From the NCBI RefSeq assembly GCF_001942495.1, contig NZ_MKZS01000001.1, positions 4,727,035 through 4,762,405 on the forward strand: DNA of 35,371 bases, in the 5' to 3' direction. The notes beneath the pieces are model-generated. The model was not told where the DNA came from. It made no database searches and saw only the letters and a program-made list of their open reading frames with translations. The DNA is from Moorena bouillonii PNG. GTDB lineage: Bacteria; Cyanobacteriota; Cyanobacteriia; Cyanobacteriales; Coleofasciculaceae. Positions 6,996 to 31,092 of this stretch are shown here, piece after piece (positions within the stretch are counted from its first letter, which is position 1; every line of letters begins with the position of its first letter). Position numbers and translations under genes: made by a program.

Positions 6996-8348
6996 ATGCA
7001 ATACGGATACGTCTACAAGCTCATTCCAAGTTCTCAGCAGATGACTGTCATGAATCGGTGGCTGGATATGCTCAAAGCGCAGTACAACTATCTGTTAAGG
7101 GATAGGAATGATTCCTATGAGCAGGTTAAGTCACCTAAAATGGGGAATTACTGCGACTTGAGGACTCGTGGAGAGGCGTGTCCGTTGACTTGCTCGGTCA
7201 ATAAGTCAACCTCTGTTGGTTATCCTTGGAAGAAAAGCCAGAAAAATCCTAGACGTAGTGTTTATGAGGTTCAAAGTTCTACTCTTCCGAGTTTAAAAAA
7301 AGAACGCCCTTGGTACAAAAAAATACACTCAACTGTCCTGCAACAAATGCTCAGACAGTTGGATACCGCCTTCTCAAAATTCTTTAAAGGTGAAGCAGGG
7401 TATCCCAAACCGAAAAGACCTTCTCGTTACCGGAGCTTCAAGTACTCACCAGGTCAAGTAAAACTTGACGGCAATCGAATTTACTTGCCCGGAATAGGAT
7501 GGATGAGATTTTATAATTCTCGTCCTATCCCAACAGGTTTCACGATGAAATCTGTGACCGTGCGTCGAAAGTCACGGGGTTGGTTTGTCAGTATTCAGAT
7601 CGAGGACAAATCAGTTCCGTTACCTCCGGTGAAAACTACTGATGAAATCAACCCAAATTGTGTCAAAGGATGCGATTTAGGTATCAATAAACTTGTCAGT
7701 ACTTCTGATGGCGAAACTATTGCAAACCCATCTAACACTAAAAAGTTCAAGCGTAAAAAAAGGCGCTTGAAACTAAGACAAAGAGTTGCGAGTCGGAAGC
7801 AGAAAGGCTCAAATAACCGCAAAGAATCTTTTAGTAAGGTTGCGTCGTTACACGAACGATTAGCCAACAAGCGTTCTGCGTACCATTGGGAAGTGGCTAA
7901 AAAATTGACCGATGGTACAGATGCCCTGGTTTTTGAAGATCTCAACATTAAGGGTATGAAGTCTCGTTGCAAACCCAAGCCCAATCAGGATGGTGGATAT
8001 GATGGCAACGGACAATCTGCCAAAAGAGCACTCAATCGTGTAATATCTGAAGCCGCCTGGGGAGAACTAGTAAAGAAGGTAGAAGTCGTGGCTGGGAAGT
8101 CAGGCATAGCGATCATCAAAGTCAACCCTAAGCATACATCTGTTGAATGCCCGAAATGCCATCACATCAGTGCAGACAATAGACATGGGGAAAAGTTCCT
8201 CTGTACTGAATGCGGATATCACGATGATGCTGATGTGAACGGTGGTGTAAACATTAGGAACAGGGGTTTAAAACAACTGGGTATTGACCCCATCCAGCTA
8301 CCCTCGGTGCGAGGGAAAGTTACGCCCATGGAAATAACAGCCACTTAG
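6996..8348 (+). CDS. tnpB: TnpB, RNA-guided nuclease of IS200/IS605 (IS1341) family
   Basis: The 450-residue product has the full TnpB layout. The RuvC-I Asp lies in KGCDLGINKL (D227), the RuvC-II Glu in LVFEDLNIKGM (E314), and a zinc finger is formed by C385, C388, C403 and C406. RuvC-III follows in DDADVNGGVNI (D411 or D413). All catalytic residues seem present, so nuclease activity is expected, unlike the nuclease-dead TldR relatives. A Cys-containing insertion near residues 53-66 of the N-terminal domain is longer than in ISDra2-type proteins. The ATG at 6996 has a GAGG about nine bases upstream. TnpB proteins use an omega-RNA from the element's right end to cut DNA and keep the element at its site. 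Confidence 0.92.
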   Translation: MQYGYVYKLIPSSQQMTVMNRWLDMLKAQYNYLLRDRNDSYEQVKSPKMGNYCDLRTRGEACPLTCSVNKSTSVGYPWKKSQKNPRRSVYEVQSSTLPSLKKERPWYKKIHSTVLQQMLRQLDTAFSKFFKGEAGYPKPKRPSRYRSFKYSPGQVKLDGNRIYLPGIGWMRFYNSRPIPTGFTMKSVTVRRKSRGWFVSIQIEDKSVPLPPVKTTDEINPNCVKGCDLGINKLVSTSDGETIANPSNTKKFKRKKRRLKLRQRVASRKQKGSNNRKESFSKVASLHERLANKRSAYHWEVAKKLTDGTDALVFEDLNIKGMKSRCKPKPNQDGGYDGNGQSAKRALNRVISEAAWGELVKKVEVVAGKSGIAIIKVNPKHTSVECPKCHHISADNRHGEKFLCTECGYHDDADVNGGVNIRNRGLKQLGIDPIQLPSVRGKVTPMEITAT

Positions 8349-12699: not shown

Positions 12700-13410
12700 A
12701 TGAATCAAAAACGCATCATTGGTCTAACTGGTGGTATAGCCACGGGAAAAACCACCGTATCGAATTACCTAGCTGATACCTACAGGCTACCAATTTTAGA
12801 TGCGGATATCTATGCCAGAGAAGCAGTACAACCAGATTCACCAATCCTGAAACAGATTTATCAGCGCTACGGTTTACAAGTGCAGCACAGTGACGGTACC
12901 CTGAACCGTAAACCCTTGGGAGAGATAATTTTTAGTAACCCAGCTGAGCGACAGTGGTTAGAGCAACAAATCCATCCTTATGTACGCGATCGCTTTCAAT
13001 CTGAACTCGATACCTTTCTTGATGCAATAGCGAGTGGGGAGGGGCTGTGTGCGGAACCTGCGTCCGCACCTTGTAAGCCCCGTGGAAACCCCCAAGACCG
13101 CGCTGCATCGCTAGTTGCTCCTACAGTTATCTTAGTCATCCCGTTACTATTTGAAGCTAAGATGACCGATTTAGTGACAGAAACTTGGGTAGTCAGCTGC
13201 TCACCAGAACAACAGCTCAAACGGATCCAGAAACGCGATCGCATCTCTAAAGAACAAGCTCAAGCCCGGATCAACAGCCAACTCCCCCTCCAGCAAAAAA
13301 TAGCACTTGCTGATCTAGTTTTAGATAACTCCTCTACCAAAGAAGCTCTAATCCAACAAGTATCTACTGCCCTTGCTACCAATGGATATCATCGAGAATT
13401 TAGAATTTAG
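12700..13410 (+). CDS. coaE: Dephospho-CoA kinase carrying an in-frame repeat-element insertion
   Basis: CoaE phosphorylates dephospho-CoA at the 3'-OH of ribose, the last step of coenzyme A synthesis, in the cytoplasm. Evidence: P-loop GLTGGIATGKTT near the N-terminus, DAD (residues 28-30 region), and the conserved VILVIPLLFEAKM and SCSPEQQLKRIQKRD blocks. The length, 236 residues, exceeds the usual 195-210. The excess is a foreign-looking stretch at about residues 112-138 (GEGLCAEPASAPCKPRGNP...) encoded by a GC-rich repeat whose 49-bp core recurs, reversed, at 21493-21541. The frame is kept, so the gene is probably still functional. The insert sits in a loop before the beta-strand VILVIPLLF. 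Confidence 0.9.
   Translation: MNQKRIIGLTGGIATGKTTVSNYLADTYRLPILDADIYAREAVQPDSPILKQIYQRYGLQVQHSDGTLNRKPLGEIIFSNPAERQWLEQQIHPYVRDRFQSELDTFLDAIASGEGLCAEPASAPCKPRGNPQDRAASLVAPTVILVIPLLFEAKMTDLVTETWVVSCSPEQQLKRIQKRDRISKEQAQARINSQLPLQQKIALADLVLDNSSTKEALIQQVSTALATNGYHREFRI
13033..13111. repeat. GC-rich palindromic element inside coaE
   Basis: Positions 13045-13093 are identical over 49 of 49 bases to the reverse complement of 21493-21541. Within it GTGCGGA and TCCGCAC form a hairpin around a 7-base loop. Right of it, CAAGACCGC and GCATCGCT words recur next to the palindrome at 30751-30820. The element has no stop in the coaE frame. Confidence 0.85.
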
Positions 13411-13545
13411 AATTTATTAGAATTAAGAATTAAGAATTAAGAATTAAGAATTAAGAATTCTACATTCTAAATTCTGCATTCTTCATTCGACCTTCTGCAT
13501 TCTTCATTCTAAATTCTGCATTCTTCATTCGACCTTCTGCAAACC
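13406..13545. repeat. Heptamer array (gaattaa, attctgc types) between coaE and sir
   Basis: Runs of gaattaa/gaattta units (13406-13460) are followed by cattctt/aaattctg units to about 13545. It is an STRR-like array between convergent gene ends, and its A+T-rich composition differs from neighbouring genes. Confidence 0.8.
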
Positions 13546-21349: not shown

Positions 21350-21545
21350 ATAAGGGTAGGTTTTTTACTTTGACCTCAGGTGTGGGGTGTGGGGCGTGGG
21401 GTGTGGGGTGTGGGGGATAAGAAAGCGATGCAGAGGTGCGACCCGTGGCGAATTAAATTCGCCTACGGAAAGCGCACCATTTGCCGACCCGCGGGGGTTT
21501 CCACGGGGCTTACAAGGTGCGGACGCAGGTTCCGCACACAGACCC
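21350..21545. repeat. STRR array and composite palindromic element
   Basis: A gtggggt 7-bp array (about 21380-21412) is followed by a composite repeat at 21424-21545. The first half is a partial palindrome centred on GCGAATTAAATTCGC with GGTGCGAC and GCGCACC ends. The second half (21493-21541) is the module also found in coaE, reversed. Open frames on both strands cross the element. AAGGGTAGGTTTTTTAC near 21354 recurs near 35324. I see no gene in the 439-bp gap. Confidence 0.8.
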
Positions 21546-21704
21546 AAAACCATGACCGCTCTGCATCGCTTACCAATCTTTTGCTCTGAAAGCTATTTTC
21601 CTAGCACCGTGCTATTGACTTTATTGAGTTAATATGCGTTCCAGATGACTTGTGCAGTTTCTTCGATAGGCTAAAGAGAACGATAAATCTGTGAGGACTG
21701 GGGT

Positions 21705-30551: not shown

Positions 30552-30757
30552 ACTTTGGAATTAACTTGAAGTCATTATGATTTCAACATAGCTCCATTGT
30601 ATTAGATATTTAGACCCCGGTAAAGGTGAAAAGGTTCAACAATTGTTTGTCTTGAGGAAAAAATCGCAATATCATAGGGACAGAGTCCGTCGATTACATT
30701 TCTTGATGCAGTCGCTCATGGGGGAACCCCCTTTGGCGGCACTGGCTCCCCAAGACC

Positions 30758-30814
30758 GCTTAGGTGTGCTTTCCGTTGGCGAATTAAATTCGCCAACGGA
30801 AAGCACACCTAAGC
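30758..30814. repeat. Perfect 57-bp palindrome (cgaattaaattcg family)
   Basis: Arms of 28 bases (30758-30785 and 30787-30814) are exact reverse complements around a single A, with the centre GCGAATTAAATTCGC. A copy with partial arms lies at 21424-21480 and another core at about 25468. Flanking words CAAGACCGC and GCATCGCT match those in coaE. The open frame at 30643-30858 is repeat sequence, not a gene. The rest of 30552-31092 shows nothing clear. Confidence 0.9.
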
Positions 30815-31092
30815 ATCGCTGGTGGGACTTGGGACCTTGGTGGGGCTTCGGAGATTAAGCCTCAGGTACACCCTCCATTAAAATAATCACCCAATAATCA
30901 GGAAATAGATAGATACCCCGAAGTGAGATAACCGAACTCATGGGGGTCGTGATGTCTAGACAGGCACCAATTACTGCCACTGCTAATTGAAGAGTTGGAA
31001 GTAATTGGTTGGAGTTGGCTAGGGGGAACTTACGTAACTATAAAATTAAGAAAGATCCACATCCGACCCACTAGCACAAGCGAGAAAACACT

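Follow-up and report, generated by a model that had tools for sequence, protein, structure and literature searches.

What is a repeat doing inside coaE, the dephospho-CoA kinase gene of Moorena bouillonii PNG, and where did it come from? The window analysed here, a stretch of 35,371 nucleotides (positions 4727035-4762405 of G000:C1 in a genome of 8.3 Mb and 13 contigs), contains a coaE gene whose product had been described in a preliminary account as about 30 residues too long, with the excess encoded by a repeat. Both halves of that statement hold, as the net gain over relatives with an empty site is 32 residues and the repeat is found genome-wide. Here we report that a gene-less palindromic repeat has very probably spread in Moorena genomes, entered coaE in frame, and been tolerated there as a flexible loop.

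The coaE frame is open on both sides of the insert, as previously stated. Its product scored 200.1 bits against PF01121 (E 3.1e-59, cut-off 27) and 199.7 bits against TIGR00152 (E 3.8e-59, cut-off 65.55), each profile matching in two stretches, the better of which ended at residues 108 and 107, respectively. With these profile scores and the P-loop residues G16 and K17, invariant across 49 CoaE sequences, the product can be assigned as a dephospho-CoA kinase. It is the only full-length CoaE among the matches listed for the window strain, and the filled gene is therefore presumably the working copy. From its place in the pathway, coaE is expected to be essential.

Five Moorena genomes were compared at this site, namely those of the window strain (G000), Moorena sp. 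SIO3I8 (G003), Moorena sp. SS36440bin_2 (G002), G001, and SIO3H5. The site is filled in two of the five, the window strain and SIO3I8, at the identical base and with an unbroken reading frame, and empty in the remaining three, where G001 (L035), G002 (L036), and SIO3H5 (L068) encode a short form that misses the residues 112-138 assigned earlier to the repeat. The empty sites of G001 and G002 read CTCGATACC-AT-AGTTGCTCC; in the filled sites, 98 bp stand between CTCGATACC and AGTTGCTCC. Filled genes are thereby longer by a net 96 bp (32 residues), I106 of the short form giving way to 33 residues (106-138). The insert bounds proposed initially, 13033-13111, were too narrow at the left edge, which the empty sites place at 13015 (Table 1). 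At the three sites compared for a target-site duplication (coaE, DUF1822, and DUF4058), at most one or two ambiguous bases were visible.

Table 1. Features of the window discussed in the text (window coordinates)
Feature	Position	Strand	Basis
coaE, dephospho-CoA kinase with in-frame insert	12700..13410	+	open frame, 236 aa; PF01121, TIGR00152
Inserted segment, 98 bp replacing 2 bp (AT) of the empty site	13015..13112	+	alignment to G001 (L035) and G002 (L036)
Outer palindromic element, left arm (CTTGATGCA + ATAGCGAG variant + TGGGG)	13018..13039	+	copy comparison
Inner 45-bp palindrome, nested in outer apex	13040..13084	+	simple and composite copies compared; hairpin -22.5 kcal/mol, z -3.00
Outer element, right arm (GAAACCCCCAAGACCGCGCTGCATCGCT)	13085..13112	+	copy comparison
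Composite between listed ORFs: GCGATGCAG-type arms, same inner palindrome, further palindrome	21425..21569	-	copy comparison
Third composite of the outer family, another palindrome nested inside	30702..30820	+	no ORF of >=100 aa listed there

The anatomy of the element was derived from 30 copies read by eye, with 90 bp shown per side. The simple outer element consists of CTTGATGCA, 8-9 variable bases, and TGGGGGAAACCCCCAAGACCGCGCTGCATCGCT, and forms an imperfect hairpin with imperfect arms of ~20 bp (-28 kcal/mol, z -5.79 for a hand-typed consensus). In coaE, the inner 45-bp palindrome breaks the GGGGG/CCCCC apex of this outer element, and the hairpin of the composite outperforms shuffled sequences by no more than a moderate margin (z -2.39; 3/200 shuffles as good). 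The inner-palindrome sequence also occurs without any outer arm in the 90 bp on each side at six of the 30 loci (L011, L012, L015, L016, L018, and L023). Since simple outer copies add 51 bp in the DUF4058 and DUF1822 genes described below and the inner palindrome measures 45 bp, the coaE gain of 96 bp resolves into 51 + 45. The insert is a repeat, as first described, although not a single unit: it is a nested composite in which a 51-bp outer palindromic element holds a 45-bp inner palindrome. In the simple consensus, four of six core frames are free of internal stops, and a stop at the edge of one core frame stems from a base outside the core.

The 49-bp core at 13045-13093 had been reported as identical, reversed, to 21493-21541, and the two segments are indeed reverse complements over exactly 49 bp. 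Chance similarity is ruled out, as first-order Markov shuffling of the window, repeated 20 times, gave longest reverse-complement matches of 14-19 bp. What the two places share is the inner palindrome; the second is not a simple copy, but sits in a different composite with inverted arms at 21416-21435/21559-21578 that read GCGATGCAG...CTGCATCGC. Further variation was seen among the copies. The composite at 30702-30820, unmentioned in the preliminary account, contains a different inner palindrome (an inverted repeat of the form GTGTGCTTTCCGTTGGCGAATT...), another case of modular nesting. At L009, L013, and L218 of the window strain, arms are tandemly multiplied in steps of ~19-26 bp (e.g., CCTCCCCAAGACCGCGCTG), which would fit hairpin growth through duplication of arms, and the outer hairpin apex at L160:10260-10303 and L185 reads GGGGGTTTCCCCC in the window strain versus GGGGGAAACCCCC in a G001 relative, which would fit a flipping of the loop.

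The two filled coaE alleles differ at 12 of 573 flanking positions (~2.1% divergence). Within the 98 bp there are five differences, all inside eight bases of the left arm, where the window strain has ATAGCGAG and SIO3I8 has GTCGCTCA. Elsewhere in the window-strain sample described below, these variants occur 12 and 79 times, respectively, and a third variant, AAGCGCGAG, 18 times. Because the five clustered differences match another left-arm variant of the outer family, the pattern suggests conversion between element copies as the best account of the allele difference. One copy at L002 of the window strain, which falls outside any long open frame, is identical to that of coaE over 89/89 bp.

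The repeat is not confined to the two places noted in the window: the coaE insert has at least 46 BLAST matches at E<=1e-3 in its own genome, coaE included (40 of 366 first-look candidates scored). Copy numbers from this search, and from those with the Oscillatoria and Microcoleus inserts discussed below, are lower bounds, because only 40 first-look candidates were scored per genome. Counts of the outer-family 18-mer CCAAGACCGCGCTGCMTC were 301 (G000), 379 (G001), 210 (G002), and 113 (G003), against 0-5 in each of 53 further genomes from the family and order, of which four had any; its backwards-read control is absent from all 57 genomes. A 675-kb sample of the window strain, made up of the window and 50 stretches, held 74 complete outer elements, the commonest form being the simple 44-bp core (32/74). 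Open frames extending for 40 or more residues on both sides surround eight of the 74, about five of these eight being convincing genes; this is not a genome-wide rate, since the sample is non-random and biased towards known matches (it comprises regions chosen for such matches within the first 2.94 Mb, together with the window and a few more hits). The description of the repeat as mobile agrees with its genome-wide occurrence and with the empty sites in relatives, mobility itself being deduced from presence and absence.

Ten genic candidates were considered, eight in the window strain and two in relatives (L222 and L224). Convincing genes among the eight are coaE, a DUF4058 gene, a DUF1822 gene, and a polyketide synthase gene. 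Simple outer elements lie in frame in the DUF4058 gene, with a net gain of 51 bp compared with G003 and G001 and 48 bp compared with G002, and in the DUF1822 gene, with a net gain of 51 bp; the latter copy is common to a G001 relative and absent in three others, and some of these empty comparators may be paralogues. The polyketide synthase copy falls between the AT (47-367) and PP-binding (442-503) domains. In an Omp85 protein (L168, window strain), the element is in frame before the POTRA domains in a stretch that is partly N, while in G002 a composite is in frame within an RND transporter, which is supported as a gene. At L162, which encodes a hydrolase, the element lies upstream of the likely start. 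A CpeS-like fragment directly behind an outer-element cluster (L218:1785-2369, profile 111-169 only) looks truncated, and the domain scan of candidate frames gave no Pfam match for L222 and L192.

Frame-keeping is not automatic, because an insertion in a Uma2 gene of the window strain (L159, ~8165-8250; family assignment taken from the protein of a relative) breaks the gene. There, the outer element adjoins other repeat sequence, the gene is split over two frames, and the spacing between fixed marks is 88 bp, versus 12 bp in the three relatives measured, a net gain of 76 bp. The Uma2 site rules out the notion that members of the outer family always keep the frame. On this comparison, outer-family insertions, or repeats combined with them, also break genes, and the in-frame cases are those surviving as genes. 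The same site in a G001 relative contains a different repeat of 60 bp (net 48), with the frame kept.

The predicted structure of the filled protein agrees with the earlier placement of the insert in a loop before a strand. In the AlphaFold2 model (49 sequences; mean pLDDT 89.9, pTM 0.85), the insert runs from the end of helix 81-111 into strand 142-146. Mean pLDDT per ten-residue block is 94-98 for residues 11-110 and 141-220, and 69, 50, and 59 for the three blocks of residues 111-140; at the ends of the protein it is 87 (1-10), 86 (221-230), and 54 (231-236). The best 14 Foldseek matches to solved structures are all CoaE enzymes. The insert probably adds a floppy loop to the modeled enzyme.

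This loop has received additional sequence repeatedly. We compared 81 CoaE sequences, the one from the window plus the best 80 among 166 relatives, and internal inserts of at least eight residues were present in 21 of them, every one at query residues 107-139. The CoaE of Oscillatoria sp. SIO1A7 has an 84-residue insert at the same loop, part of which (query 33-162) has at least 50 matches in its own genome, itself and separate pieces counted, the copies other than itself being up to 97% identical. Three Microcoleus proteins (L100, L125, and L126) have an insert of 34-36 residues there, with at least 13, 16, and 7 matches beyond coaE in the three genomes at E<=1e-3, mostly 72-77% identical over longer stretches; both palindrome arms, AGAAACCGGGTTTTTT and AAAAAACCCGGTTTCT, are present in 14/14 places read, with no more than two substitutions per arm. 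The loop extension of ~20 residues in Okeania and Trichodesmium is not a repeat, because only coaE itself matched (coaE alone in four genomes, nothing in a fifth), and it was rejected as a further repeat family in these five genomes. The repeat tests covered the Moorena, Oscillatoria, Microcoleus, and Okeania/Trichodesmium inserts; Planktothricoides has an extension of 15 residues, and others of 8-14 residues occur among the 81 sequences. Judged by sequence, the same CoaE loop holds three repeat families without evident similarity to one another, in Moorena, Oscillatoria sp. SIO1A7, and Microcoleus. We infer that this recurrence reflects filtering by tolerance. In the Oscillatoria gene (L117), a direct duplication of ~35 bp flanks the palindrome, so that TEAIAARNGGD is encoded twice; it could be a target duplication.

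The observed sequence, empty sites, copy number, reading frame, nesting, and recurrence at the loop lead us to propose the following scenario. A short palindromic repeat without its own gene would have spread within Moorena genomes, as judged from presence and absence, and would have entered coaE, most simply in an ancestor that the window strain shares with SIO3I8. In its simple form, the outer element adds 51 bp, or 17 codons; given this length and the four stop-free core frames out of six, a clean insertion in a gene would keep the frame and often be readable. The 45-bp inner palindrome, or 15 codons, may have come from a later insertion, or the composite itself may have been the incoming unit. 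The encoded residues, predicted to be a flexible loop joining helix 81-111 and strand 142-146, avoid the invariant positions, and we propose that for this reason they leave the protein able to fold and the insertion tolerable. The insert would be translated and neutral, with selection filtering where insertions survive.

Other explanations can be set against this scenario. Repeat-rich genomes such as this one, in which some stretches are N, invite the suspicion that a repeat was misassembled into coaE, but the separately deposited SIO3I8 assembly shares the insertion down to the base at which it sits, again with an unbroken frame, which rules out such an artefact and leaves it a negligible probability. 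The loop might instead be an ordinary lineage-specific coding expansion, with the repeats arising as outward copies of coaE sequence. Repeat-free variation of CoaE loops does exist, as in Okeania and Trichodesmium, and the L002 copy matches that of coaE base for base; however, the outer element occurs at hundreds of positions in four Moorena genomes, including two with an empty coaE, the commonest form in the window-strain sample is the simple core rather than the coaE form, and the outer element is palindromic in itself, as the z-score of the simple copy indicates. The abundance of the family in strains with an empty coaE already largely refutes such outward copying, which we consider very unlikely.

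A role for the loop in CoaE regulation, oligomer contacts, or stability, for which it would be kept by selection, is somewhat less remote but still improbable. Its retention in frame in two species whose coaE flanks have diverged by ~2.1% is consistent with such co-option, as is the presence of three unrelated repeats at the same loop, yet three of the five Moorena genomes do without the insert, AlphaFold2 predicts it at low confidence, and the five clustered allele differences, matching another left-arm variant, suggest conversion between copies. Entry of a gene-less repeat followed by tolerance is the reading that we prefer. Its broader extension, which we put forward as doubtful though worth stating, would make unrelated palindromic families a recurrent source of linkers in cyanobacteria and the CoaE loop a landing site in which three or more of them were retained independently; the nested 51- and 45-bp modules of Moorena would then be multiples of three because frame-keeping units persist inside genes and others break them.

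Among known systems, the closest in behaviour are the Rickettsia palindromic elements (RPE; Ogata 2000, 2002), described in PMC10969869 and PMC3733652 as palindromic interspersed repeats found in frame inside diverse genes. The Moorena outer element is likewise palindromic, interspersed, and in frame in genes whose relatives lack it. It differs in the host phylum and in its build, a 51-bp outer hairpin with a nested 45-bp palindrome versus an RPE length given as about 150 bp in PMC10969869, where the extent to which such insertions shaped Rickettsia proteins is called unexplored. The resemblance drawn in the preliminary description thus stands as an analogy: the Moorena element behaves like an RPE, and membership in that family is not claimed. 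In-frame intragenic REPs with GTAG/CGTC tags have been documented in several other bacteria, according to PMC3733652, some of them lying entirely within genes, where dimers or groups encode 20-30 residues, and in recB of two Xanthomonas species REPs occur at about the same site. The Moorena element is also a short multi-copy palindrome with some copies inside genes, but its ends read CTTGATGCAG...CTGCATCGCT, with no GTAG/CGTC tag at the hairpin foot in the copies read.

REPs are further set apart by their Y1 (RAYT) transposases, as none of the 18 Y1_Tnp matches in the window strain was bracketed by the outer element within 1.5-kb flanks, which lends no support to RAYT mobilisation of that element. 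At L263 (G000:C1:6333791), a partial Y1-transposase match interrupted by one stop is followed ~110 bp downstream by an inner-palindrome copy, an arrangement that could tie this palindrome to an element of the IS200 type. With its imperfect terminal inverted arms of ~20 bp, the simple element also resembles MITEs, and cyanobacterial MITEs (Nezha and the Anabaena MITEs, as cited in PMC10969869) are likewise short units with inverted ends. It differs from them in that no clear target-site duplication and, at the Y1_Tnp loci examined, no parent insertion sequence was found, and it is likened to them by description. Small dispersed repeats of Nostoc, reportedly treated by Elhai in 2008, are said to be very short mobile repeats in cyanobacteria.

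The suggestion that such insertions are little described in cyanobacteria was not contradicted by a literature search of incomplete coverage, in which no listed title or abstract described such an element for CoaE or for Moorena; in other bacteria, in-frame intragenic REPs are on record, as PMC3733652 indicates. Protein-coding palindromes, known from Rickettsia and some other bacteria, are now seen in free-living marine cyanobacteria together with clean empty sites. The occurrence of unrelated repeats in one CoaE loop in three genera provides natural pairs, with and without insert, of an enzyme expected to be essential, and such pairs allow neutrality of these inserts to be tested against usefulness.

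The window contains other repetitive sequence as well. Tandem repeats with a 7-bp period lie directly 3' of coaE (13395-13541) and vary among Moorena relatives, and many further arrays of this period are present elsewhere in the window. Positions 1-1643 comprise 17.7 copies of a 93-bp unit, the minus strand of which, by eye, resembles a putative HEAT-type repeat protein.
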